From Mesorhizobium sp. M2A.F.Ca.ET.046.03.2.1 (lineage in GTDB: Bacteria; Pseudomonadota; Alphaproteobacteria; Rhizobiales; Rhizobiaceae): a stretch of DNA of 64,000 nucleotides. The notes under the pieces were generated by a model. That model did no database searches, had not been told where the DNA came from, and saw nothing but the letters and a program-made list of their open reading frames with translations. Within the stretch, counting starts at the first letter, position 1; each line of letters opens with the position of its first letter. The stretch is from positions 6,932,001-6,996,000 of the forward strand of contig NZ_CP034449.1 of the NCBI RefSeq assembly GCF_003952425.1, written 5' to 3'. Positions 1 through 12,374 of the stretch are shown here, in pieces. The translations under genes were made by a program, and so were the position numbers.

Positions 1-1025
1 TTCAAGGCGTTGTTGATGGCCGGCGCCACTTGGTCGAGGCCGGTGAGCGCGCCAATGTTCCTCCCGAGATTCTGGGCCGCTTCGTTGACGCTATTCAGGA
101 AACGCTCGATTTCCCCGAGAGCGGGTGCAGCCGCCGCCACGTCGTCGCCGAACTGACGGATTGCAACCCCAAGCTCATCAAGGAACTTGCCGAACATCTC
201 GGTAGCATGAGCATTCGTATCGAACTTGCCGGCTACATCGACCAGCACGTTTTGCAGCCGCACGAAACGGCCCGAGATAGTCGTTTCCGCACCAGCAACC
301 TTTTGCTGAAGTGTGGCGGCACCAGCGGCGAAGCCGTCGAAGAACGCCTTGCTGGAGAGCTTTCCGTCGACGACAAGCTGTTTCAGGGCAGCAACGGAAC
401 CGCCGGCCTCTTTGATGCCCGCCGCTGCCGCTTGGGCGATCGTCGGCGCACCTTCAAGCACGGAGTTGAATTCCTCCGCGTGAACCGTGCCGCTGCCAAG
501 CGCTTGACCTAGCTGAAGCAGCGCGCCGGATGCCTGGCCGGCATCTGTGCCGGCGACGCGGAGGGCGAGCGCCACGTTGTCGGTGAACTGGAGCAGTTGG
601 CCGGATGAAACTCCAAGCTCACGCTGTTGCTGGGCGGCCCTGCCATAGAGCTGCACCAGCGCCTCAAGCGGCACGGCGTTCTTCTGGGCGGACGCGAACA
701 GCGCATCGTAGACCTTGGTCAGGTCTTCGCCGGACAGCCCGGCGACCTTCAGCGCGTTCTGAATCTTCGTGGCGGTGTCGATGAGCCTTTGCGCGCCCTG
801 AAGGCTGACGCCCGCCAGGAAACCCGTGCCGATACCCTTCAGGCCGGCATTGATCCGGGTCGATACGGCAGCGAATGACGTTTCCATGCGTTCGCCGGCC
901 TTCTTGGCGCGCTGTTCCATCGACCGAAATCGCTGGTCGGTCTGCTGCTGCGCACGTTCGAAGTTGCGCATGTAGCGCTCGAACTTCGCCTCGAACGTGA
1001 TTAAAAGCTGCTGGCCGTCATCCAT
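1..1025 (-). CDS. Phage tail tape measure protein (N-terminal part, cut by window edge)
   Basis: The reading frame is open from an ATG at 1025 to the left edge, about 341 codons. The start of the protein is rich in charged and Gln residues and probably forms a coiled coil. It is followed by a tape-measure N-terminal domain: a run of Ala/Gly/Leu helices with LSGEDLTKVYDALF near residue 95 and a GSGTVHAEEFNSVLEGAPTI segment near residue 180, typical of siphophage tape measure proteins. Tape measure proteins set tail length and are ejected into the host envelope. It starts 10 bp after the large terminase stop and is read in the same direction. In most siphophages the gene before it is a tail chaperone, which is not the case here. 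The C-terminal part is outside the window. Confidence 0.88.
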   Translation of the reverse strand, partial: MDDGQQLLITFEAKFERYMRNFERAQQQTDQRFRSMEQRAKKAGERMETSFAAVSTRINAGLKGIGTGFLAGVSLQGAQRLIDTATKIQNALKVAGLSGEDLTKVYDALFASAQKNAVPLEALVQLYGRAAQQQRELGVSSGQLLQFTDNVALALRVAGTDAGQASGALLQLGQALGSGTVHAEEFNSVLEGAPTIAQAAAAGIKEAGGSVAALKQLVVDGKLSSKAFFDGFAAGAATLQQKVAGAETTISGRFVRLQNVLVDVAGKFDTNAHATEMFGKFLDELGVAIRQFGDDVAAAAPALGEIERFLNSVNEAAQNLGRNIGALTGLDQVAPAINNAL

Positions 1026-1035
1026 CTGAAAATTC

Positions 1036-2658
1036 CTATGCTGCCTCGGCCATGAGCTGGTCTAGTTCGTCGGGGTCCATGTCGAGGAAGGACTTGCGGT
1101 TGTTGTTCGCGACGGCACGCGCCACGGCCATGACGGCAGCAACAGCGCCGTCAATGCGATCGGTCTTCTTGCCCTTGTGCATACGGACAAGGCCGGTGTC
1201 GTTGCGGGAAGCGACGACGCTATCAAAGTGATGGCGAAGAACCGGGTGCCCGTTGTGGCGAAGCGCCCGGCCATTCACCACGCGCTCGAGCACGCCAATA
1301 GCCGGTCCCATGGTCAGCGGCCCCTGGCGCATTTCGACGGCCGGCAAGCCGTCATCGTAAAGCCGCTGCATGGTCATGCGCGCCAGGTGCGGGTCGAATG
1401 CGATTTCCTGCACGTTGTCATTGGCGGCACAAATCTCGCGAATGTGCTTCTCGACTTCCTCCGGTTCGATCACCGGACCATCGATCACGGTAATCAGGCC
1501 GTCGTCGCGCCATTGCTCATAGGGCACGCCGTCACGTTCGGCCCTGCCTTTCAGGTCATCCCCAGGCACGAAGAACCACGGGTGGACATAGATCGCGCCA
1601 TCATCGCCACGCCACGCCGCTACAACGGCGGTGAGGTCGCCGTTGACGGACATGTCCACGCCGATGAAGCACGGCAGCGCCGCGAGGTCGGCGAGGTCGA
1701 GCGGGATCTTGCCGGCGTCGTAGGTTGCCATGTCGAAAAGGGGGTCGCGCGAATGCGCCTGCCAGATATTGAGATTGAACTGCTTGAACGCGTAGCGGTC
1801 TGCGGGCCGGTGCTCCGCTTCCCTCGCCGCCGTGCGCAGCGCGTCGAGGTTCGGAAAGCTATACTTCAGGCCAGGGTTGACGCGGTGCCATAGGTCTTCG
1901 TCCTGCCACTCATTGTCGTTGGCCGCTTCGAAGATGATCGGCAGATATGCGGGGTTCACGATCTCGCCACGCGCCACGCGCCGGGCATAGTCATACTGCT
2001 CGAAACCGATGTTCTCGGAACCCCGCCCGGCCGTGGTGGCGATCACCATGAGGGTGCCGCTGGTCTTCACCATGCCCGATTTGAGCGCTTCCCAAAGGTC
2101 GCGGCCCTTCCACACATGGATTTCGTCCACCAGCACAAAGGCCGGCGTCTTGCCGTGCTGCGCAGCGCCGTCGCTGGAAATGGCCTGAAGCTCAACGCCG
2201 AACTTCGGATAGACGATTTTCTTTGCGCTGTTGTGCGCGTCATAGATGCGGGTCGCGGCGACCAGGCGCTTGTCCATCCGCACAATGTTCGCGGCTTCCT
2301 TGAACCCAAGGCCGGCCTGCTCACGGTCGGACGCTGCAAAGATCACCTGGCCGGCCGGAACCTTCTCTGGGCCAATGGTGTGCAAGAGGGCGAGCGCAGC
2401 AGCGAGGGAGGTCTTCCTCCCGCCTCTCGGAATCATCCAGAAGACGGTTTCGACCACGCGCCGGCCGTTCGCGTGGCGCGGGCCGTAAATGCGACGGATG
2501 ATACGTTCCTGCCAGTCATAAAGCTGGAAACCAGAGTTCGCCGCGGTGCTATTTGGATGCTTCAAGCGGCGAATGAATTCAACCGCACGCTCGCCATAGC
2601 CGAACGGGTCTTCAATCGTGGAACCGTCGAAAATCCATGCGGGATAGGTGCTCGCCAT
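1036..2658 (-). CDS. Phage terminase large subunit
   Basis: This 540-residue protein is the motor and nuclease that packages DNA into the prohead. A Walker-A-like loop (IPRGGRKTSLAAAL, about residue 78) and a Walker B segment (FVLVDEIHVWKG, about residue 175) lie in the ATPase half. The C-terminal half has acidic nuclease motifs (FIGVDMSVNGDLTAVV; later KTDRIDGAVAAVMA), as in the TerL_ATPase/TerL_nuclease family. The ATG at 2658 overlaps the small terminase stop as TGATG, which supports this start over the upstream GTG. The terminase pair lies between the head-tail adaptor and the tape measure gene rather than upstream of the portal, which is an unusual place. Confidence 0.93.
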   Translation of the reverse strand: MASTYPAWIFDGSTIEDPFGYGERAVEFIRRLKHPNSTAANSGFQLYDWQERIIRRIYGPRHANGRRVVETVFWMIPRGGRKTSLAAALALLHTIGPEKVPAGQVIFAASDREQAGLGFKEAANIVRMDKRLVAATRIYDAHNSAKKIVYPKFGVELQAISSDGAAQHGKTPAFVLVDEIHVWKGRDLWEALKSGMVKTSGTLMVIATTAGRGSENIGFEQYDYARRVARGEIVNPAYLPIIFEAANDNEWQDEDLWHRVNPGLKYSFPNLDALRTAAREAEHRPADRYAFKQFNLNIWQAHSRDPLFDMATYDAGKIPLDLADLAALPCFIGVDMSVNGDLTAVVAAWRGDDGAIYVHPWFFVPGDDLKGRAERDGVPYEQWRDDGLITVIDGPVIEPEEVEKHIREICAANDNVQEIAFDPHLARMTMQRLYDDGLPAVEMRQGPLTMGPAIGVLERVVNGRALRHNGHPVLRHHFDSVVASRNDTGLVRMHKGKKTDRIDGAVAAVMAVARAVANNNRKSFLDMDPDELDQLMAEAA

Positions 2659-3044
2659 CACGTCACCGCGAGCGGGTTGTCGTCGTCATCGTCGTCGGCG
2701 CCAGCCGCGCCGACGCGAGAGCGCGAGACGGGCGACAGGCCATATTCGGCGGCAAGCTGCCGGGCCGTCTGCATGGCGCGGTTCTGCATTCCGAAAAGGG
2801 TCTTGTCCAAGCCGCCAGCGGCAAACAGTCGCTCGATCTCGCGAACCCGCCCGGTCGCCACGCAATAGTTCTCGACGCCGGTCAGGTCGGCCTTGGTGAT
2901 GATCCGATCCGCGATCAAGCGCGGCATGATACGCTTCCATTCCGCGCGAGCGTCGGCCGTCATCCACTTCGGCGCGGTCGGTGCCTTGGTGAGCGGTTCA
3001 CGATCAGGGGAAAGGACAGGCTTCACGCCGCGAAGATGCGTCAT
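2658..3044 (-). CDS. Phage terminase small subunit (P27 family)
   Basis: This 128-residue protein resembles P27-type small terminases, which recognise packaging DNA and present it to the large subunit. Visible features are an N-terminal Pro-rich stretch, WMTADARAEWKRIMPRL, and the helical segment LTGVENYCVATGRVREIERL. It ends in a poly-Asp tail (six D). Its start overlaps the head-tail adaptor stop as ATGA and its stop overlaps the large terminase start, so it is translationally coupled on both sides. The identification rests on family-like sequence plus position next to the large subunit. Confidence 0.85.
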   Translation of the reverse strand: MTHLRGVKPVLSPDREPLTKAPTAPKWMTADARAEWKRIMPRLIADRIITKADLTGVENYCVATGRVREIERLFAAGGLDKTLFGMQNRAMQTARQLAAEYGLSPVSRSRVGAAGADDDDDDNPLAVT

Positions 3045-3355
3045 GCCGTATCCACCGCCCGGAGCTCAAGGCCGCGACGGCGGCCGATTTCGGTGACTTC
3101 CTTCAGGTCATAGACCTGCCCGGCGTAGCTCACGCGGTCGGCCGTGGTGATGCCGGCGAGGTAGCGGACGCGGAAGACGATGGTGCCGCTTTCGGCCTCG
3201 CCGAAGCCGGTGAGGAATTCGGAAGCGGATTGCGTCACGATCTCCGCGCGCACCGTGGCAACGTTCAGCCAGGCGGCGACAACCGCGCCAGTCGGCGACA
3301 CGGTTTCGGTCTTCCGCTCAATGGAAACGGTTCGGTCAAGCTTGCCGGCGCGCAT
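3041..3355 (-). CDS. Phage head-tail adaptor protein
   Basis: This 104-residue protein has the usual opening of the SPP1 gp16/HK97 gp7-like adaptor family (MRAGKLDRTVSIERK), a middle ATVRAEIVTQSASEF segment, and a C-terminal VRYLAGITTADRVSYAGQVY beta-rich part. These proteins close the head connector and receive the tail. The ATG at 3355 is used because it forms a TGATG overlap with the stop of the upstream DUF3168 gene. An ATG four codons earlier is less likely. Confidence 0.85.
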   Translation of the reverse strand: MRAGKLDRTVSIERKTETVSPTGAVVAAWLNVATVRAEIVTQSASEFLTGFGEAESGTIVFRVRYLAGITTADRVSYAGQVYDLKEVTEIGRRRGLELRAVDTA

Positions 3356-3774
3356 CACACAATCCACCGGATGAGCGCTTCAACCGACATGACGGCGTGC
3401 CCATAGGCCGGGTCGGGATCACGCGGGTAGACAGCGCGCGTCACCTCGAAGTGGTCGACGTAGCCGCCGTCAATCTGAAGCTTCCACTTGCTGTCCAGCG
3501 CCTCACAGACGGCAAAGGCAATTGCCTTGGCGGCATCCTCGCCCGAGTCGAGAGTCCAAATATGGATGTCTAGATTGACCCAGGCGGCGCGCTGGGCGGA
3601 GTAGTCGTGGCCGTGCAACGCCGTGGTGCCGTTCGCCATGATGATGCACGGCGTCTTGTCCGGTCGCGTCGAGCCGGAACGGATGTTGTCGGCGGGCACA
3701 AGCGCGGTGACGGCCGGGCGATCAAGCAATCGCGAACGGATAGCGGTCTGAAGGGCAAGGGTCGGCTCGATCAT
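3355..3774 (-). CDS. DUF3168 phage tail terminator/completion protein
   Basis: This 139-residue protein is of the DUF3168 family (gpU/gp17-like tail terminators). It begins MIEPTLALQTAIRSRLLDRP and has VPADNIRSGSTRPDKTPCII and a late AYGHAVMSVEALIRWIV strand, all typical of the family. Tail terminators cap the tail tube at the head end. The start at 3774 is chosen because it overlaps the stop of the gp10-like gene as ATGA. The expected next gene, the major tail protein, is absent. Confidence 0.82.
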   Translation of the reverse strand: MIEPTLALQTAIRSRLLDRPAVTALVPADNIRSGSTRPDKTPCIIMANGTTALHGHDYSAQRAAWVNLDIHIWTLDSGEDAAKAIAFAVCEALDSKWKLQIDGGYVDHFEVTRAVYPRDPDPAYGHAVMSVEALIRWIV

Positions 3775-4187
3775 CGCCTGTTCCATTCCTTCTTGGCCGC
3801 GCGGGTGAAGGCGCTTGCGGTGCCACGCTTGATTTGGTCGCGAAGCAGCCGATAGCCGGTGAAAAAGAATGGCTGGGCTTCCGTCTTGGACGTGCCATGC
3901 TCAACAAGGTGCGGATACCGCACGTCCTCATTGCCCGCCGTGACGATCACCTGACCCTCACCGGCGACACGGGAGCCGCCCGGCTGGGAAAAGGGCGGCG
4001 TGCTCTGGCCGGGCAGCGTCACGGTGATGCTCTCGGCGAGCGCGCCGGTATCCTTTGGCGCAAGCCTCCGCTGAATATCGGCAACGTCGTTTGCGCCCTT
4101 AATAAGCCGCTTCATGGCGGCTTCCTTTGCCGCCAGCTTCACGCGCTCCATAGCCGCAAGCGTTTCCTTTAGGCCGTTAGACGCCAT
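3771..4187 (-). CDS. HK97 gp10-like phage protein
   Basis: This 138-residue protein matches the HK97-gp10 family of head-tail joining or tail-completion proteins. Conserved features are RRLAPKDTGALAESITVTLP in the first half, VTAGNEDVRYPHLVEHGTSK in the middle, and AQPFFFTGYRLLRDQIKRG near the end. It overlaps the gp6-type connector gene by 11 bases and the DUF3168 gene by four, so the connector block is a tightly coupled translation unit. Confidence 0.9.
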   Translation of the reverse strand: MASNGLKETLAAMERVKLAAKEAAMKRLIKGANDVADIQRRLAPKDTGALAESITVTLPGQSTPPFSQPGGSRVAGEGQVIVTAGNEDVRYPHLVEHGTSKTEAQPFFFTGYRLLRDQIKRGTASAFTRAAKKEWNRR

Positions 4188-4497
4188 CAGTAGCGGCCTC
4201 CCCGAACCAGCTTTCGCGGTAGGCGTCGGCGATGCTGGTCACGCCGTAGGGCGCAAGCTGCATGGTCATGGTGACGCTGAAGGCGACGGCCTCGCGCTGC
4301 TCATAGTGGAACGCCACCAGCTTCAGCACCGCGAGCTTCAGGTCGTCGGGCAGTGGATCGAGGTCGGCGAGCGGCCTGCCGATGTAGTTGCTAAGCCACT
4401 GTTCGGCCGCGCCGATGTAGAGCGTGATAAGCTCATCGTCGGCCGTGCCATCAACATTCATGTGTGCCTTGGCGAGCGCCAGGGTGACGATGCTCAT
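4177..4497 (-). CDS. Phage gp6-type head-tail connector
   Basis: This 106-residue protein is of the HK97 gp6/phage DNA-packaging connector family. It is a small all-helical protein beginning LALAKAHMNVDGTADDELIT, with YIGAAEQWLSNYIGRPL and LKLAVLKLVAFHYEQREAV. It would form the ring below the portal. The start overlaps the stop of the repeat protein upstream as ATGA. Confidence 0.9.
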   Translation of the reverse strand: MSIVTLALAKAHMNVDGTADDELITLYIGAAEQWLSNYIGRPLADLDPLPDDLKLAVLKLVAFHYEQREAVAFSVTMTMQLAPYGVTSIADAYRESWFGEAATDGV

Positions 4498-5354
4498 TCG
4501 TTTTCGGCCTTCTCAGAAAAAGTTATTTCGGGAATCTCTTGCGGGAAGCTCCCCCCGCCGGTCCCCGACGCTATGGCGAAGTCGGCAACCACCCCCCGGT
4601 CATGGCCGGGCGTCTTGCGCCGCCTCGGGCCGCCCATTGCGACAGCCTGGGCAACCGTGCGGCCGTTGCCGTCCTTCAGGCGCTTCAGGAATGCGTCATA
4701 GCTAATGCCGAGATGGTCAGCCCATTCGCCATACGTCTTGCTCACGCCATCGACGGTGTGGAGCAGGCTTGCGCGCTTGCCGCTCTTGCTATGTGCAAGC
4801 GCATGCTCAAGCGTCATGCCTCGCTTCATTCGCTGGGCGAGCGAGTGGTAGCTGATGTCATACGCATTGCACCATTCAGACAGCGTCTTGCTGATTCCGT
4901 TTATGGTATGCAGCTTCGGCTTGCGGCCGGGCCGGTCGTTGAAGACGCTACGCTTCTTCCGCCTGAAGTTCGGATTAGTTGCTTCGGCGATGGAGTAACC
5001 AAAGCGGAGACGGTCCCGGATGTTAGATTCTTTGACGCCGCTAAGCTTTGACCACTCTCGAACCGTGAGGGACTTCCCGTCGTGTTCGTAGCGCGTGGCC
5101 TGCCGTGGTGCCGCTGCCTCCGGCTTGGCGATCTCGAATTTGTGGCCGATCGCTTCCGCGTTGTCCGATCGGCGAAAGGCGTTGGCCGCACGTTCGGCCA
5201 CGTTGTCAGGATCAAGCCCGGCAAGGCTGCAAACATCGACAAAATCAGCATTGGCGGGCTGAAACCAGGCGCGTGCCCGTTTGTCCTTTAGGCCATCTTC
5301 TGTGGCCTGAAGGATGACGGCAACCCAAAGCTCGCGTTCGGAAGCGTGCTTCAT
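4494..5354 (-). CDS. Prophage protein with three helix-turn-helix-like repeats
   Basis: This 286-residue protein is not a family I can name. The N-terminal 75 residues contain a WFxxxNADFxxVCxLAGLDP segment. Three related units of about 38-41 residues follow at roughly 90-127, 149-188 and 199-239. They share the pattern G(K/I/V)S.T..EW.....(V/I)...(S/N).(L/I)..R...G....A, which looks like a helix-turn-helix resembling the repeats attached to homing nucleases. A basic linker (RRKKRSVFNDRPGRKPK) lies between repeats 1 and 2. The ATG at 5354 overlaps the HNH gene stop as ATGA, and an upstream extension of the frame runs inside HNH. Position next to HNH suggests DNA recognition; that is inference. 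Confidence 0.75.
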   Translation of the reverse strand: MKHASERELWVAVILQATEDGLKDKRARAWFQPANADFVDVCSLAGLDPDNVAERAANAFRRSDNAEAIGHKFEIAKPEAAAPRQATRYEHDGKSLTVREWSKLSGVKESNIRDRLRFGYSIAEATNPNFRRKKRSVFNDRPGRKPKLHTINGISKTLSEWCNAYDISYHSLAQRMKRGMTLEHALAHSKSGKRASLLHTVDGVSKTYGEWADHLGISYDAFLKRLKDGNGRTVAQAVAMGGPRRRKTPGHDRGVVADFAIASGTGGGSFPQEIPEITFSEKAENE

Positions 5355-5701
5355 GGGTGCTGCCTCCGCCGTTCTCTGATGTAGTCGCGTGCATTGCAGC
5401 GCCGGCAACCGGGCCGCCAGTTCGCGCGCACCATGCGAAGGTCGGGGTGTCGGCGGATGCTGACCACGTGCCGGACAAGGGTAGCCGGTGAGCCGCACTC
5501 GCAATGGTCATTGCCAGGCAGAGCGAGGAAGGCGCGGGCCGCTTGCTCCCATGCGCGATCATAGCCGCGCCGGCTTGCATTCTCGCGGCGTGCATCATGG
5601 CGAGCGTTGCGCTCACGGTCGCGCACAACCTGGCAAGCACAACGCTCGCCATGGGCGACGATAAGGCCACAAGAGCAAATGCGAGGTGGACGAATTGGCA
5701 T
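5351..5701 (-). CDS. HNH endonuclease
   Basis: This 116-residue protein has cysteine pairs for zinc (CSCG at the start, CAC, CECG, and CRRC near the end). It carries an HNH-like core VRHVVSIRRHPDLRMVRANW followed by GCRRCNARDY, the usual HNH layout with the N in the middle strand. Phage HNH proteins of this size commonly assist the terminase in DNA cutting and sit beside terminase genes. Here it is separated from terminase by six genes. Its stop overlaps the next gene as ATGA. Confidence 0.85.
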   Translation of the reverse strand: MPIRPPRICSCGLIVAHGERCACQVVRDRERNARHDARRENASRRGYDRAWEQAARAFLALPGNDHCECGSPATLVRHVVSIRRHPDLRMVRANWRPGCRRCNARDYIRERRRQHP

Positions 5702-5706
5702 GTGTC

Positions 5707-6288
5707 CTACCCAGCCAAGCCACGCAGCTTCGCCAGACCTTCTTTCACCTTCTCAGGCGCGATCTCTTCGAGCGGGTCGCTTTCGGCTTTCTCATCATCC
5801 TTGACGCCGTTGACGGCCTTCAGGCGGGCGACGAGACCGCGCTGGGCAATCGAGATTTCGGTAGGGATTGCGGCCCATGTGTCGGCCGGCGACCAGCCAA
5901 GCCAGCCGGTGCCGATCTCAAACAGCCGTTCAAGGTGAGGGCCAATCCAGTCGGAAGTATCGGGCGTGCTGTCGACACGTTCGCTGACTTCCAACGCGGC
6001 CTTGCGATCGACGCCTAGCAGGGCGAAAGCGAAGTCAGAGAGAGGCTCGACCAGCGCCACCAGATCGCGAACGCTAAGGCCGTTGACCACCTTCGCACCG
6101 GTTTCAGGGTCGGTGCCTTCAAGGATGATGTCGGCGATGATGCCAAGGTGGCCCTCGCCGACAGCTTCAGCCAGCTTGCGAAGGTCGTGCTTCGCATGCA
6201 GGCGGACAGCGGCCCGCAAAGACGGCCGCAAGCGCACGGCATGAGCGGAGCCGTGCGGAATTGCGATGATGTCGTTTGCGAGCCGCAT
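5707..6288 (-). CDS. Putative phage tail assembly chaperone-like protein
   Basis: This 193-residue protein opens with beta strands (IIAIPHGSAHAVRLRPSLRA) followed by a helical segment, as in some tail assembly chaperones. Near residue 150 it has FEIGTGWLGWSPADTWAAIP, resembling the W-x-P-x-x-x-W element of the short chaperone partner that follows a -1 frameshift in other phages. Here both parts are in one frame. It lies six bases after the capsid gene. The assignment is by family-like pattern only. A general minor structural protein is the alternative. Confidence 0.55.
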   Translation of the reverse strand: MRLANDIIAIPHGSAHAVRLRPSLRAAVRLHAKHDLRKLAEAVGEGHLGIIADIILEGTDPETGAKVVNGLSVRDLVALVEPLSDFAFALLGVDRKAALEVSERVDSTPDTSDWIGPHLERLFEIGTGWLGWSPADTWAAIPTEISIAQRGLVARLKAVNGVKDDEKAESDPLEEIAPEKVKEGLAKLRGLAG

Positions 6289-6293
6289 AGGGG

Positions 6294-7481
6294 TTACGCC
6301 GCCACCTTCAGCTTCAGAAAGCGGTCGGCATTCGTGACGTCGCCGCCGACACGCTTGCGGGCGTGGAAGCGCACGGTGCCCTTCGTTGCCTGCGAATACG
6401 GGTCGCGCAGAACGGACAGGCCGATACGGTCGATGATCCGATAGCCGGACAGATCGCCGAACATGATCGGATAGGCGTTCGCCGCCACGTCGGGCATATC
6501 GACCATCTCGACAATCGGACGGCCAAGCAGCGTGACGGGTGCGCCGGCCGTGATCGGGTCGAGCATGATGAAGCGGCCGGTGCCGTCCTTCAGGGTGCGC
6601 AGCGCGCCCAGGGTCGTGCGGTTCATCAGCCAGACGCCATTCTGGGCGACGACAGACGGCACCTTGTGGAACATGCCGATGATGGTTGCGGCCGGGTCGG
6701 TGCCGAGCGTCGCAGCGTTGCCGGTCTTCACTTCGGCGATGCCAGCGGCGACGAGCAGGCCCTTCGGCTTGCCGGTGCCATTGCCGGACACGAAAGCGGT
6801 GGCCTCGGTCTTGCCGAACGCCTCGCCCAGGTCGGCGGCAAGCTCGCCTTCCAGATTGTAGGCGTTGTCTTCCAGAAGCTGGTTCGACACGTCCACATAG
6901 GTGGCGAGTTCATAGGGCGTGAACGTCGCCTGTTCGAACGTCATGTCCGACTGCGAGCGGTCGTCCGTTTCGCCGACCCAGGTCGCGGCGGTGCCGGTGA
7001 GCTTCCGGGGAAGCTTGATCTCCGGCGCTGCAATGGTCGTCACCTTCGCGTAGGCGCGAACCGGCGAGAATTCGACGATGCCCTTCAGGATTTCCGCGCC
7101 GAAGGCTTCCGGCGCCAGGTAGCCCGCGCTTGCGTCGGTGGCGACGGTGAGCGTTGCCGCTGCCTTCTGGTCCATGCGCTCGATGCCCTTGCGGGCGAAC
7201 TCAATGAACGCTTTGCGCTCAGCGGCTGCAGCATCGTTGTCGTTGTCGGCGGCGGGGACATTGGAGTTGGCAGCGACCGGACGGTTCATCTTCGCTTCAA
7301 GCTTGTCGAAACGTTCGGTGAGCTTGACACTGTCGCCCGTCTTGGTCTCGACGGCCTTCAGGCGGGTTTCGACTGCCTCACGGAAGTCGTTGAGCGCCTT
7401 CGTGACAACGGCCTGGCCGTCGTCATCGTCGCCTTTGATTTCGAGCGCGTCGAGCGCTCGCATGCTAGTGCGGTTCATCAT
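6294..7481 (-). CDS. HK97-family major capsid protein
   Basis: This 395-residue protein has the full HK97 layout. An N-terminal scaffold-like delta region of about 110 residues is helical and rich in Glu and Lys (VVTKALNDFREAVETRLKAV), and would be removed by the protease. It is followed by AGYLAPEAFGAEILKGIVEF, VSNQLLEDNAYNLEGELAAD with FVSGNGTGKPKGLL, and a C-terminal domain with FGDLSGYRIIDRIGLSVLRD. The start touches the protease stop, and the order protease-capsid is the standard one. Confidence 0.95.
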   Translation of the reverse strand: MMNRTSMRALDALEIKGDDDDGQAVVTKALNDFREAVETRLKAVETKTGDSVKLTERFDKLEAKMNRPVAANSNVPAADNDNDAAAAERKAFIEFARKGIERMDQKAAATLTVATDASAGYLAPEAFGAEILKGIVEFSPVRAYAKVTTIAAPEIKLPRKLTGTAATWVGETDDRSQSDMTFEQATFTPYELATYVDVSNQLLEDNAYNLEGELAADLGEAFGKTEATAFVSGNGTGKPKGLLVAAGIAEVKTGNAATLGTDPAATIIGMFHKVPSVVAQNGVWLMNRTTLGALRTLKDGTGRFIMLDPITAGAPVTLLGRPIVEMVDMPDVAANAYPIMFGDLSGYRIIDRIGLSVLRDPYSQATKGTVRFHARKRVGGDVTNADRFLKLKVAA

Positions 7482-7987
7482 TATACCTCTTGGAAGAAAT
7501 GCGCCGTGGCGCGGTTGATGGCGTCGGCAATCGCGAGCGCCTGGACTGCCGACTTCGCACTGGTGACGCGCGCGCCGGGATGCATGGGGAGAGTCACAAG
7601 GCTCGCCTCAAGCAATTGGAGTTGAGAGATCGTGCGGCCACCGCCCTTGCGAGCCATGGCCTTGCGGGTAATAAAGCCGATCGAAATCCCGCGCACCGCG
7701 CCGGACTGCACAAGCGCGCGAACCTCGCGGGCGCGCTCGACGTGCTCGACAAGCAGCTTGCCCTTCAGGCGAAGGCCGTCCGGTGCCTCAACGGCTTCGG
7801 TCCAGACGCCAATAGGGTCGTTCTGGTCGTGGCCGAAAAGCATCGTGAGGGGCAGATTGACGTTGGCGAAAGCGCCTTTCTCAATCACGTCGCCGACGCG
7901 ATCGGGTGAGCCGAACGGCCACGCAAGCCCTTCAATCTCGCCGGCATTGCCGGCGACGAATTTGGTTTCGAGGAAGAGCTTATCCAT
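7481..7987 (-). CDS. HK97-family prohead protease
   Basis: This 168-residue protein is a U35-type phage maturation protease. It shows LPLTMLFGHDQNDPIGVW with the catalytic-type His, and GAVRGISIGFITRKA with the Ser motif preceded by a conserved Gly. The C terminus is Ala-rich. It cuts the capsid delta domain during prohead maturation. The ATG at 7987 overlaps the upstream chaperone-like gene by eight bases. The longer upstream frame is not supported. Confidence 0.92.
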   Translation of the reverse strand: MDKLFLETKFVAGNAGEIEGLAWPFGSPDRVGDVIEKGAFANVNLPLTMLFGHDQNDPIGVWTEAVEAPDGLRLKGKLLVEHVERAREVRALVQSGAVRGISIGFITRKAMARKGGGRTISQLQLLEASLVTLPMHPGARVTSAKSAVQALAIADAINRATAHFFQEV

Positions 7988-8321
7988 TGGCGGTGTTGTC
8001 CTGGGCTTTGTCGCTGGCCTGGGCGGGCGCGCCGGACCAGACGGCTTGCAAAACAGCCGTGGCGATCGGGAAGGATTCAATGAGTGGGCGCTTGGCCGCG
8101 TAAGTGTCGGCGAGCGCAGCGGCTTCCTTGGGCGTCGAGCCGCCGCCGATGAGCGATAGCCGGATGATCTCGACAAGCTCAGCATGGCGGAAGTGACCAT
8201 CAGGGACGCGCATGCAGAGCGCGCCGATGCCGGCACCGGTCTTGCGCTCAAGCTCAAGGATCAACTCGGGCGTGAGTGCGAAAGCATGGTTGCCGTCGCC
8301 GAAGAAAGCGGTATGCGTCAT
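7980..8321 (-). CDS. GTA-gp10-like tail assembly chaperone (Phage_TAC_11 type)
   Basis: This 113-residue protein closely follows the pattern of the gene-transfer-agent family proteins: FGDGNHAFALTPELILELER, then KTGAGIGALCMRV, AELVEIIRLSLIGGG, and a final AAKRPLIESFPIATAVLQAV. In the Rhodobacter GTA and related phages this gene is found just before the tape measure gene. Here it sits between portal and protease, overlapping the portal stop as ATGA. The family call is good; the placement is odd. Confidence 0.8.
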   Translation of the reverse strand: MTHTAFFGDGNHAFALTPELILELERKTGAGIGALCMRVPDGHFRHAELVEIIRLSLIGGGSTPKEAAALADTYAAKRPLIESFPIATAVLQAVWSGAPAQASDKAQDNTANG

Positions 8322-9559
8322 GCCGCCACCTGGCCGGCGGGGCGGTTGTCGTTTTGAGCGGCCGGCTTGCCGGACGTGGTGTAGGGATTGGCGAGCTCGT
8401 CACCGCCTTTGATGGCCGGCAGGTTCATGGCGGCGCGGACTTCGTTCGGCGTCATGGCGCGCATAGCGACCAGCTTGCCGAAGATTTCCGCCCTACCCGC
8501 CGCGTCGGCGCGCTGAAGGTCGTCAATGACGAATTCGAAATAGAGGTCGTCTTGCTCGTCTTCGGTGAGAAGGACGGTCGCATAGGCGTCCTGCCAACGG
8601 TCGAGCCAGGGCCGAAGGCAAAGCTGAAGGAAGCTCGCCGCCATCTGTTCGGCGTTACTCCATGTCGCGCGCTCAAGCTGGTAGAGCATGTGAGGTGGCA
8701 CGCCGAAGATGCGGGCAATCTCGTTGATTTGCTCAAGCCGGTTCTCGATAAACTGCGCATCGGTGCTAGGCATCGTCTGCGCTGCATAGGTCCATCCGGC
8801 GTCGAGAATGAGCGGGTCGCCGCTGGAATTGGACTGCCACGTGCGCCACGACTTCAGGATGTTAGAAATGGTCTTCGCACCGGACTCACCGCCGGCCGGC
8901 TTTTCGTTGGACACGACGCCGGACGGTCGAGCACCACCCGCGAAGAACTTCGACGCATGGCGTTCAAGCACCATGGCAACGCCGATAGCATCCTTGCCAA
9001 GCGTGATCGGCGAGACGCCGCCGAAGGCAGGGACGTAGAGAACATCACGGTAGGACAGGCGCACCTGTCTGCCCTTGGTCGGCTGGACCAGGTAATAGGG
9101 TTCGCCGTCATCCGCGAAATGCTGCTGGACGGTGCCGGGTGTGAGGCGGTGAAGTTCGGCCGGGCGGTCACTGCCGACGCGCACAACCTGAGCATAGCCC
9201 GCACCGTGCATGAGCGCGTCCATTGTAAGGACGCTGCGAAGATGCCCGGCGCTAGTCCAAGGGTTCGCACGGCTATGCACAAGTCGATTGCCGGCGTGAT
9301 CCTTGGCGGCTTCCTTGCTATCCCCTTCCTCACGGTAGAGTTTGCAAGGCAGCGAGCCGATTGTTTCGGAAATCAGTCGGAGGGCGTGAAGGACGGCCGG
9401 CACATGCAATGCGGTGCTCGCGGTGACGGTCACGCCAGACGCTGACGGCACGATGCCGAAGACAGATTCCATGCCGTAGGAATCAGAAAGCGGGACCGAC
9501 TTCTTTTCGATCCCGCTTCCAAAAATAGTCTTCAGAAACTCGACTGGACGAGAACGCAC
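8318..9559 (-). CDS. HK97-family phage portal protein
   Basis: This 413-residue portal forms the dodecameric ring through which DNA enters the head. Visible family features are ALHVPAVLHALRLISETIGS, SYRDVLYVPAFGGVSPITLG, HASKFFAGGARPSGVVS, FIENRLEQINEIARIFGVPP with HMLYQLERATWSNAEQMAAS, and a C-terminal segment MTPNEVRAAMNLPAIKGGDE. It is the first structural gene in the transcription direction and lies about 105 bp after an unknown protein gene, across a lower-GC spacer that could carry its promoter. Confidence 0.94.
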   Translation of the reverse strand: MRSRPVEFLKTIFGSGIEKKSVPLSDSYGMESVFGIVPSASGVTVTASTALHVPAVLHALRLISETIGSLPCKLYREEGDSKEAAKDHAGNRLVHSRANPWTSAGHLRSVLTMDALMHGAGYAQVVRVGSDRPAELHRLTPGTVQQHFADDGEPYYLVQPTKGRQVRLSYRDVLYVPAFGGVSPITLGKDAIGVAMVLERHASKFFAGGARPSGVVSNEKPAGGESGAKTISNILKSWRTWQSNSSGDPLILDAGWTYAAQTMPSTDAQFIENRLEQINEIARIFGVPPHMLYQLERATWSNAEQMAASFLQLCLRPWLDRWQDAYATVLLTEDEQDDLYFEFVIDDLQRADAAGRAEIFGKLVAMRAMTPNEVRAAMNLPAIKGGDELANPYTTSGKPAAQNDNRPAGQVAA

Positions 9560-9664: not shown

Positions 9665-10288
9665 TTATGGTCTAAGGGGTTGCACTCGGGCGGACACCTT
9701 TGCCGCGAAATCGGGCGGCGGGTTCCCATTACCGAGCCATGAATCCCATTGGCCCGTAGTCGGATTGAAAATACTGACCTTGCTGTTCGGGTTGTCATTT
9801 CCGATCGCGTTGAGAACAGCGATATATTCTTCCAAGCTCACATACCAAAGGCCCTTGTCCCGGGACCTATCGGAATTGAAGATGAACCCCGTCACACGGC
9901 TCGGATGTTCACGCCGCGATCGTTTCCGGGCATATTCGACCGTCTCGCCAAAAACGAAGCTGTGAATGATTGTGTTCGCCATGTCCTTGATCGAAATTCT
10001 TACATCGACAGCAGCGCTGAAATCGTAGTGATCTTCGATGTCGTATTTGGTGTGCTGGTTTATTCCCTTTTTCTTGCAGGGGTAAAAATCCGCAGGCACG
10101 CTGGACGACGCCAAGCTCGATGAAATCTTTTCCGATTCAATCAGCCGACGAATCTTGAACGCACCGACGAAAACGGTCTCTTCGATTGCAAATGACCGCT
10201 TTGCACTGCGCCGCTTACCGGCCCAATCTCTTAGAGCTGTTGCGTCGCGCAACAGCCCGTCTTTCCACGGAAAGCTATCCAGTATCAT
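9665..10288 (-). CDS. Hypothetical prophage protein
   Basis: A 207-residue protein of no family I recognise. It has no membrane segment or signal peptide, and is rich in Ser and charged residues with Lys/Arg clusters (AGKRRSAKRSF; ARKRSRREHPSRV). Its base composition is less GC-rich than the flanking phage genes, and the AT-rich spacers on both sides (9560-9664 and 10289-10316) add to that. It lies between integrase and portal, the position where cargo genes are often found in prophages. A cargo or defence role is a guess. Confidence 0.6.
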   Translation of the reverse strand: MILDSFPWKDGLLRDATALRDWAGKRRSAKRSFAIEETVFVGAFKIRRLIESEKISSSLASSSVPADFYPCKKKGINQHTKYDIEDHYDFSAAVDVRISIKDMANTIIHSFVFGETVEYARKRSRREHPSRVTGFIFNSDRSRDKGLWYVSLEEYIAVLNAIGNDNPNSKVSIFNPTTGQWDSWLGNGNPPPDFAAKVSARVQPLRP

Positions 10289-10316: not shown

Positions 10317-12032
10317 TTATAGACTAAAAAGGTGTTCTAGCCGCAAGTTGGGATAGCCGATCGAATTCACCAGATCGACGCGCTGTTGCAGCATGCCTTG
10401 AGGCATGACGCCGTAACGGCCAGTCATGGTGCCGGCGACGTGGCCCAGGATGAAACCGAACTGCTCATCTAGATATCCGGCCCGGCGCAAGGCGTCGGCA
10501 ACGCCATGCCTGAAGCTATAGAGCGACAGGCCGCGCCCGGCCTTCATGCCGAGCCGGGTGAGGTAGCGGCCGAACTCACGTGAGAATTCGGCGATCATCT
10601 GCCCACGTGAATTCCGCCTAGCTTCAGGGAACAGCCGCGCCTGCCCTGCCACCTCCATACCGTCGCGATACTTGATGAAGCCGAGCCGGATAAGCTCGTC
10701 ATGAACCGGCACCACGCGCATGCTGCCTTCGGTCTTCACGCTCTTCTCGCCATCGCCTTCCGTAGTGATATGCATGATCCAGTGGCCGTGTTCCTTCCGA
10801 ACATCGGTGACCGCAAGTTGGGCAATCTCTGCCGGGCGGGCGCCAGAAAACAGCATCACCAGCGGCAACCAATAGCGATGGTCGCGGATCATGACGTTGC
10901 CGGGCTTGGCGACGTTGCGCCACTCATCGGCGCTCTGGCACCCGGTAAATAGGGGCGACTTGAACAGCGCGTTCATCTGCTCGACGCCGAAGGGGACAGT
11001 CGTCTTGTCCTTCGATTTCTTCAAGAACATGCCGTCGGTCGGGTTGCTGTCGATGTAACCGTGATTGTCCAGCCAGGTGCAGAAGGCGCTCAAGCCGGCG
11101 AGATAGCGGTTAACGGTGCTTGTGCTGATTACAGGCTTTCCGACCTTCTCATTACGCCGAACGATGTCGGCAATCTTCATGCCGGCAAACTCTTTGCTTT
11201 CGGTCGCCTTCACCGGGAACTTCAGCAACAAGGCCTTCCACTCGCGGACGGCTTTCTTGTCGATGCGTCGAGCCGGAAAGGTGCTGCCGACGTAATCGAC
11301 AAAGGTGCCAAGGTCGCGCCGGGCCTGGGCGATCGTATCGACAGCAATGCCCTTCGGATTCTCGACCGCATATTGCTCGAATAGCTCCATGATCCCCTCG
11401 CCCGGCGCTGCCTGCTCACGTGACGCGCCAGTGGCGGGCTTGACGATTGGGTCTTTCGGGGTGCCGGCGTAGTCGCCGCCATCGCGCTCGATGGTGCGCT
11501 GTAGCACCTCAATTTCGCTGCGCATCATCCGCCTTGCAAGGTCGGCACGATCGGACGAGGCAGGATCAATAAGCAGCTTGTGGCGCTCGATATAGTCGTC
11601 AACCTCATCGTCAATGAGCGCCGTCTCGCCAACCACCAGATGCTCCCGCAATTCGTCGAGCTTGACCCGGCGGGCCTTTGCTTCGAATTGGCGAAGGTTG
11701 GTCGCTGAAGGCCGGTCTTGGTCGTCCGGATGCCGCACGCGCGCTTCATGTTGGCGCGCTTGCTCATCGCGTTGCAACGAGTCGGTGTAATGCTGCCACA
11801 CGGCGTCGGCCTTGTCGTCGGCGGTGAGTTCGCGCCGGGCGCGCACGTCTTCGAACTCCGTCCGCCAGCCTTCAATCACCGGCCACAGGCGAGCCTTTGC
11901 GGTCGCCTCATCCTTCGTCCGAAGTGACTTTTTCCGCGTCGTCGTCCGGTAGACCGGCACTAAATCGACGGGAATATCGATGCGAGCGTAATAGGTCGCG
12001 CCACGTCGTTCGAGGTATGTCAGCCTTGCCAT
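10317..12032 (-). CDS. Phage tyrosine integrase
   Basis: This is a 571-residue site-specific recombinase. The N-terminal segment MARLTYLERRGATYYARIDI followed by a K/R-rich strand matches the DUF6538-type arm-binding domain. A core-binding SAM-like domain follows near residues 215-315. The catalytic half shows SGARPAEIAQLAV (first Arg), YSFRHGVADALRRAG (box II with Tyr in place of the usual first His), FILGHVAGTMTGRYG (His and the Tyr nucleophile region). The start at 12032 is chosen because the conserved N terminus begins there; ATGs at 12038 and 12068 are alternatives. It is co-directional with the structural genes. Confidence 0.92.
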   Translation of the reverse strand: MARLTYLERRGATYYARIDIPVDLVPVYRTTTRKKSLRTKDEATAKARLWPVIEGWRTEFEDVRARRELTADDKADAVWQHYTDSLQRDEQARQHEARVRHPDDQDRPSATNLRQFEAKARRVKLDELREHLVVGETALIDDEVDDYIERHKLLIDPASSDRADLARRMMRSEIEVLQRTIERDGGDYAGTPKDPIVKPATGASREQAAPGEGIMELFEQYAVENPKGIAVDTIAQARRDLGTFVDYVGSTFPARRIDKKAVREWKALLLKFPVKATESKEFAGMKIADIVRRNEKVGKPVISTSTVNRYLAGLSAFCTWLDNHGYIDSNPTDGMFLKKSKDKTTVPFGVEQMNALFKSPLFTGCQSADEWRNVAKPGNVMIRDHRYWLPLVMLFSGARPAEIAQLAVTDVRKEHGHWIMHITTEGDGEKSVKTEGSMRVVPVHDELIRLGFIKYRDGMEVAGQARLFPEARRNSRGQMIAEFSREFGRYLTRLGMKAGRGLSLYSFRHGVADALRRAGYLDEQFGFILGHVAGTMTGRYGVMPQGMLQQRVDLVNSIGYPNLRLEHLFSL

Positions 12033-12374
12033 TTCCATGCCTTCCGTAGCACGATTCCGGAACATCAAACCGGAACAGTTCTAGACGAGAAAGCGCTTGA
12101 ATCGCAATAGCTTCTTTGATTTCAGGTGGTTAGAAAAAGTTGGATTACCGTCCAGGTTCCCCAGCCAAAGTTTTCTCCGCGCATTCCCACATTTGAACCG
12201 TAAATTCATCGCAACGGGTATCGATGTCGGCTGAGCTCCGGTTGATTTTCCGGTTATATTAGCAATCAACTATATATTAATAGCTACGGCGCAGCCTGCT
12301 CGAATCGGGAATGTCCCCGATCGACGATCCGGCACTCAGTGTGCCGAGACGCTCGACCGATGCGGAGCAAACGC
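12033..12374. other. AT-rich spacer upstream of integrase; probable prophage end
   Basis: This gene-free stretch of about 340 bp is poorer in GC than the genes on either side. Just before the integrase start there is a direct repeat, CCGGAACA at 12057-12064 and again at 12070-12077, and further right an AT-rich run (ACTATATATTAATAG near 12268-12282) that could be promoter DNA. The integrase promoter and one attachment site are expected here, but the other prophage end is outside the window, so no att core can be defined. No tRNA gene was found. Confidence 0.45.

Follow-up and report, generated by a model that had tools for sequence, protein, structure and literature searches.

The stretch of DNA analyzed here, which we call the window, comprises 64,000 nucleotides of the genome of Mesorhizobium sp. 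M2A.F.Ca.ET.046.03.2.1 (genome positions 6,932,001–6,996,000; G000:C1), and its first part carries the head, neck and packaging genes of a tailed phage. A preliminary description had read these genes as a prophage whose structural genes are rearranged. Our analyses suggest that they form part of a 17.94-kb integrated element, probably a phage satellite. Profile searches against the Pfam and PHROGs families identified every gene that had been named, in the right-to-left order that had been given. In window positions, the genes are as follows.

8318–9559, minus strand: portal protein (PF04860, 4e-86)
7980–8321, minus strand: tail assembly chaperone (TAC) of the TAC_11/GTA-gp10 family, between portal and protease (PF11836, 7e-25; phrog_8985)
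7481–7987, minus strand: prohead protease S78, 168 amino acids counted from ATG (PF04586)
6294–7481, minus strand: major capsid protein, HK97 family (PF05065, 3e-82)
5707–6288, minus strand: second TAC, TAC_6-like, 193 amino acids (phrog_7493; PF09550 weak)
5351–5701, minus strand: HNH endonuclease, of packaging type by position (phrog_144; no Pfam match)
4494–5354, minus strand: repeat protein (phrog_3377; no Pfam match)
4177–4497, minus strand: gp6-like head–tail connector, Ad1 (PF05135)
3771–4187, minus strand: HK97 gp10-like tail completion/neck protein (PF04883)
3355–3786, minus strand: tail terminator, gp17/DUF3168 type (PF11367; phrog_176)
3041–3367, minus strand: head completion protein/adaptor, Hc1 (PF05521; phrog_25)
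2658–3044, minus strand: small terminase TerS, Terminase_4 (PF05119)
1036–2661, minus strand: large terminase TerL (PF20441, PF03354)
1–1025, minus strand, continuing to genome position 6930731: tape measure, of which the N-terminal 341 of 764 amino acids lie in the window (PF20155, 1e-49)

Terminase_4 is also known under the equivalent name P27. All seven start–stop overlaps that had been reported are present at their positions, with TGATG at 2658 and 3355, and ATGA at 3041, 3771, 4494, 5351 and 8318. The order is a real coupled unit, as had been argued from these overlaps, and misassembly can be excluded because the genome is a single contig of 7.37 Mb and the same order recurs in other genomes. 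The premise that siphophages keep a classic order, with the terminases ahead of the portal, also agreed with the two full phages that we compared, Mesorhizobium phage vB_MseS-P1 and Rhizobium phage RHph_TM3_3_14B.

The structural genes are followed on their right by an integrase gene, and the whole is bounded by a direct repeat.

9665–10288, minus strand: accessory protein, 207 amino acids (no family match)
10317–12068, minus strand: tyrosine integrase with DUF6538, 583 amino acids counted from the first TTG (PF00589, PF20172; phrog_1)
12151–12167, plus strand: attR, a 17-bp repeat identical to the final 17 bases of tRNA-Gln(CUG)
genome 6926211–6926227, outside the window: attL, the other 17-bp copy

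The repeat lies 83 bp beyond the integrase gene and has just two copies in the genome, the left one being the 3' end of the tRNA-Gln(CTG) gene. Since these copies mark its two ends, the element measures 17,940 bp (genome 6926228–6944167), and from the integrase to a Rep-like gene its genes are tightly packed, leaving no gene-sized gap. With the tRNA joined to the right flank as the query, an uninterrupted site was found in 3 of 119 same-genus genomes, our own included in the search, at 98, 90 and 84% identity. Carriage is patchy: TerL relatives at E≤1e-80 occur in six of the 146 genomes of the genus, and portal matches at E≤1e-100 in just two of the 249 genomes of the order (own included in both counts), so that the element is rare at high similarity. 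The 207-aa accessory protein likewise has few relatives, being labelled only at the window's locus and in L025/L105, which are one element. Attachment repeats were also sought in 29 relatives with ARAGORN, which located 13 tRNAs in 11 of them. Downstream of these tRNAs, repeats of 15–54 bp were found for four relatives.

L105, Mesorhizobium ORS3324: tRNA-Gln, 15.1 kb
L116, Yoonia ponticola: tRNA-Gln(UUG), 17.2 kb
L124, Bartonella sp. M0177: tRNA-Thr, 17.6 kb
L129, Gemmobacter nectariphilus: tRNA-Ser, 17.9 kb

For 8 of the 13 tRNAs tested no downstream repeat was seen, and a 12-bp match in L126 spans merely 3.7 kb and probably arose by chance. The gene content and the mobility of the element are well supported. 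The chaperones and the tape measure resemble those of phages related to gene-transfer agents (GTAs), which might point to a domesticated GTA-like particle; however, an own integrase, tRNA attachment sites, a Rep-like gene, differing tRNA targets and patchy carriage are the marks of a mobile element, and we regard domestication as highly improbable.

The same tRNA-Gln gene carries a second insertion of about 62 kb (genome 6864287–6926193), with a 40-bp repeat of the 5' part of the tRNA at its ends and genes that, by eye, resemble those of a contractile-tail prophage. The tRNA-Gln gene thus sits between a prophage on one side and the satellite on the other. In another genome of the genus (L154, G034:C4:192800-209400), a different insert of about 15.5 kb lies between the same tRNA-Gln and right flank, and none of the labelled capsid-satellite genes is present in it.

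All structural genes were scanned, and no tube, tip, fibre or lysis gene was detected; nor did any distal tail, hub, fibre or lysis family match the element's open reading frames (ORFs) at E≤0.01. The 27 remaining ORFs of at least 40 amino acids and the 207-aa protein matched only HNH and unnamed PHROGs families at this threshold, a Pfam scan of the remaining ORFs returned DUF7946, HNH and DpnI, and a weak endolysin match of the Rep-like protein (E 0.035) was attributed to chance. When vB_MseS-P1 served as a control, seven of its nine proteins for tail or lysis were named by this library (tube, TAC, distal tail, hub, megatron, fibre and one lysozyme); of the two others, the peptidase matched a family of unknown function only and the second lysozyme matched nothing. 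The tube family phrog_1407 is present in both control phages and absent from our genome and from 15 satellite records, with a further match in the genome holding L126, outside the element. The major tail protein of the Aureimonas relatives belongs to phrog_158, and therefore phrog_1407, one of several tube families, misses some tubes when used alone. Given its 17.94 kb, its defined ends and the lack of any detected tube, tip, fibre or lysis gene, the locus looks like a satellite. Of the preliminary reading as a rearranged siphoprophage, the unusual order stands, and the complete siphoprophage is not supported.

An autonomous minimal siphophage would account for the same genes if its tube and tip proteins were too divergent for the profiles, for example if the TAC_11 or the TAC_6-like protein were the tube. 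PF11836 and phrog_8985 are indeed titled "tail tube protein", the set of head, neck, terminator and tape-measure genes is otherwise complete, and relatives from Aureimonas have a clear major tail protein. However, the structural block has no gap in which a gene could have been overlooked, and the TAC_11 protein (113 amino acids) is 33% identical to TAC11 of vB_MseS-P1, which in that phage adjoins a separate tube gene. The TAC_6-like protein is predicted to be mainly helical with one beta hairpin (AlphaFold model, pLDDT 86), and a Foldseek search of this model against the PDB gave no match at E≤0.001. Of the 61 members of its family, 58 match PF09550 at E≤1 (best 4e-7), the window's member doing so only at E 0.02, below the cut-off. 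Nor was a tip or fibre gene found, or a lysis match above chance level, in a library that finds most of these in vB_MseS-P1. An autonomous phage is thus unlikely.

The preliminary description had left room for this locus to be the only exception among relatives of classic order, which is not so, as the order is common to many alphaproteobacteria. Relatives were collected through the similarity of their capsids, taking the best 80 of 105 loci in viral contigs and all 29 in named genomes, and a few from the genus were added by TerL. Among 112 capsid loci, own included, 80 have a labelled portal, capsid and TerL, and 32 were set aside as incomplete. Left out before this count were L136–L138 (comparators), L151 and L156 (copies of L106 and L105), L154 and L157; the 4-kb loci L006–L024 were never included. 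The 80 loci represent 57 capsid clusters at 95% identity and are biased to relatives of this capsid, so that they measure conservation within the lineage and not frequency among all phages. The order portal–capsid–TerL was found in 80/80 loci. A tape measure is present in 59 loci (43 clusters) and follows TerL in every one of them, and in 54 loci a TAC separates portal from capsid, 16 of these loci having another TAC behind TerL. All 13 genes, a count that omits the protease since it is often fused to the capsid, recur in exactly this order in 27 of the 80 loci (20 clusters), own included; the fusion was judged from ORF length and is seen in many relatives. Portal–chaperone–protease–capsid–chaperone–HNH–connectors–terminases–tape measure is therefore the standing order of a lineage and not that of a rearranged prophage. 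A decayed prophage that has lost its tail and lysis genes, as the small size and the missing genes might suggest, is very unlikely in view of this conservation in independent clusters, the open reading frames at this locus, the attachment repeats of five elements and the sporadic presence in the genus.

In a common variant of this order (16 loci, several from Bradyrhizobium) gp10 has moved behind TerL and a second TAC is added, some loci have neither TAC nor tape measure, and a few have permuted connectors. We scanned 55 ORFs for tail genes (a selection from 111 cluster representatives, plus one or two; 25 of the 48 families matched were listed, so that there may be more tail genes than those named here). 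In the Aureimonas loci L126 and L103, a phrog_158 major tail protein is encoded between capsid and TAC; L107 and L033 carry a phrog_32 tail assembly protein, and L086 a phrog_14 minor tail protein. Tail genes may occupy single slots of the head operon and be gained and lost there. Four related loci, L048, L055, L073 and L115, have no tape measure or TAC and carry unidentified genes of 370–490 amino acids upstream of the portal; they may be alphaproteobacterial satellites of the type of the capsid-forming phage-inducible chromosomal islands (cf-PICIs). In the Mesorhizobium ORS3324 element (L025/L105), no labelled connector or TerS genes lie between the repeat protein and TerL; these could be deleted or divergent.

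In a TerL tree of 54 rows (one per cluster and type, short sequences left out), the window belongs to a group of 16 rows that share its type (SH-aLRT 100). Because the type labels need several changes over the tree, and because an Escherichia coli island joins a phage on long branches, we claim no origin from it.

The tape measure is about 38–43% identical to those of Rhizobium, Sinorhizobium, Mesorhizobium and Labrenzia phages, and phage capsids and TerLs among the matches listed reach about 34% identity at most. Its length in the 59 loci ranges from 607 to 931 amino acids, leaving aside one protein of 1336 and another truncated by the end of its contig, and its C-terminal stretch matches phage tape measures. 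Matches of 80–90% identity appear to reflect a short motif at the C terminus that is widespread among phage tape measures, and therefore do not name the helper. Another possibility would be that the tape measure and the chaperones sabotage tail assembly of the helper by competing for its tube or tip proteins instead of building a tail of their own. Attacks on tape measures are known from both satellites and prophages (Rta, in excerpts of PMC12987554; Tab, in excerpts of PMC10884400). However, the tape measure is a 764-aa protein with a phage-matching C-terminal stretch and is accompanied by terminator and neck proteins, and deletion of tmp in another satellite group, the phage-inducible chromosomal island-like elements (PLEs), lowers satellite transduction (PMC12987554, same excerpts). 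We find sabotage quite unlikely.

To the left of the tape measure, outside the window, lie two further genes of interest.

genome 6929684–6930634: HUH Rep-like gene
genome 6929233–6929775: small conserved protein, after the Rep-like gene

The Rep-like protein has the HUH motif, a downstream catalytic Tyr and the HUH fold. The small conserved protein bears a "GEIGNxWP"-like motif, has relatives in 18 loci (own included) and appears fused to the Rep-like protein in P0007–P0009. HNH and DpnI-like cargo genes lie between it and attL. The repeat protein at 4494–5354 shows about three helix-turn-helix (HTH)-like repeats by eye, and its phrog_3377 match is strongest at profile positions 95–187 of 196. 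It resembles the DNA-binding half of a homing endonuclease, with no nuclease or HNH motif evident by eye. Its possible roles are binding to the packaging site and repression of helper genes; by analogy with CapR in PLEs, one might speculate that the protein is a repressor of helper genes derived from a homing endonuclease.

Taken together, these results make it likely that we are dealing with a phage satellite that is intact and mobile, forms its own capsids and assembles chimeric tails with the tube and tip of a helper. In the mechanism that we propose, the integrase would insert the satellite in tRNA-Gln, an active helper siphophage would lead to its excision, and its DNA would be replicated by its own HUH-type initiator. 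A small head of its own would be made, into which the DNA would be cut and packaged by its own HNH, TerS and TerL, and its neck proteins would close the head. We predict that its tape measure, two chaperones and tail terminator then direct the assembly of helper tube and tip proteins into a chimeric tail, and that helper lysis frees the particle. The helpers would be siphophages of the GTA-like kind, of which vB_MseS-P1 is an example. The same genome yielded no helper; a search there with the megatron of vB_MseS-P1, run with no positive control, and the phrog_1407 search were both empty. The neighbouring prophage was considered as the obvious helper and set aside, since its genes look contractile-tail-like by eye and the element's tape measure is of siphophage/GTA-like type.

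Tape-measure-bearing loci were seen in Mesorhizobium, Bradyrhizobium, Aureimonas, Roseovarius, Yoonia, Gemmobacter, Bartonella and others. The chances seem to us about even that chimeric tails are the normal way of life of this alphaproteobacterial clade, with head, neck, terminator, tape measure and mostly chaperones of its own, and tube and tip from a helper. If so, the slot-wise coming and going of tail genes could let satellites tune which helper tails fit and how long the tails are. What is new is a widespread satellite lineage of alphaproteobacteria, mostly carrying a tape measure and a chaperone. The benefits of altered tail assembly need further work, according to excerpts of PMC12987554. 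That tape measure and portal–capsid chaperone are both this frequent in a separate, capsid-encoding lineage points to control over the length and assembly of tails as a common strategy among satellites. The lineage also offers tractable hosts, including many harmless bacteria of soil and sea, for asking why a satellite brings its own ruler. Moreover, many of the "incomplete prophages" of 15–18 kb and of the short viral contigs from rhizobia and roseobacters may in fact be satellites that are intact.

Several known systems share part of this design. The GTA-like siphophage vB_MseS-P1 has a tape measure 38–41% identical to that of the element besides the 33% identical TAC_11, and its portal, protease, capsid, gp6, gp10, terminator and TerL are all matched by the element's profiles. 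Unlike the element, this phage is complete at 40.8 kb: its genes follow the classic order and include those for tube, distal tail, hub, megatron, fibres and lysis.

For the cf-PICIs, we used an island of E. coli EDL933 as comparator (NZ_CP008957 1680329–1694760), which we take to be EcCIEDL933. It carries a PerC gene. A PerC gene is reported for EcCIEDL933 (PMC11773190). The order of the island is int–HTH–...–DUF927–...–capsid–protease–portal–closure–connector–HNH–TerS(P27)–TerL. Both elements are integrative and of 14–18 kb, encode a capsid, protease, portal, connectors and HNH of their own along with TerS and TerL, place the head genes at the front and the terminases at the end, and presumably use helper tails. 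The island differs in its capsid–protease–portal start, its DUF927 gene and its HTH regulator, whereas the window's element starts with the portal. The latter has the capsid, protease, portal, connectors, TerS, TerL and HNH that define cf-PICIs (as quoted in extracts of PMC10690885), as well as an integrase and attachment sites, at 17.94 kb against about 14 kb (PMC10803314). However, it carries two chaperones, gp10, a terminator, a tape measure and an HUH Rep-like gene in place of the Pri-Rep initiator, and no alpA homologue, a gene listed as a signature (Pri-Rep and alpA as given in extracts of PMC10448857). With PF05930, two AlpA genes were detected in the genome, both outside 6926228–6944167 (the genome-wide HTH search was with PF05930 only), and no Pri-Rep or primase-type family was found among the element's scanned ORFs. 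Dependence on a helper for the whole tail does not apply to the element either, as it encodes tape measure, two chaperones and terminator. The cf-PICI host list names no alphaproteobacteria (PMC10803314). Some islands bearing tmp have nevertheless been mapped and called cf-PICIs (PMC12987554, legend of Extended Data Fig. 10). To call the arrangement undescribed, as had been suggested, was therefore too strong, given these tmp genes and an EDL933 island with head genes first and HNH–TerS–TerL last. For the exact order with two chaperones and tape measure, no description was found in the literature searched, which did not include the founding cf-PICI paper.

The PLEs, unrelated satellites of Vibrio cholerae phage ICP1, also carry tmp and tac genes, and were shown in 2026 to combine their own TMP/TAC with proteins of the helper in chimeric tails (PMC12987554, in excerpts). 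They take and remodel the helper capsid (abstract of PMC10945586) and use contractile tails, whereas the element has its own capsid, portal, protease and terminase and a siphophage-like tape measure. Putative E. coli satellites described in 2023 combine capsid genes with a tape measure and miss most tail genes; unlike the element, they have no terminases, protease or head–tail adaptors, and they use a RepA_N-type initiator (extracts of PMC10448857). The Streptomyces satellites MulchRoom and MiniFlayer have their own capsid and packaging genes but, in the extracts of PMC10690885, lack key replication genes and have no significant homology to cf-PICIs according to the authors; the term "tape measure" does not occur in the text of that paper. 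With chimeric tails in PLEs, tmp-bearing cf-PICIs and E. coli satellites with capsid and tape measure already reported, the window's element belongs to a known kind, but it differs from the cf-PICIs as defined in the cited papers.

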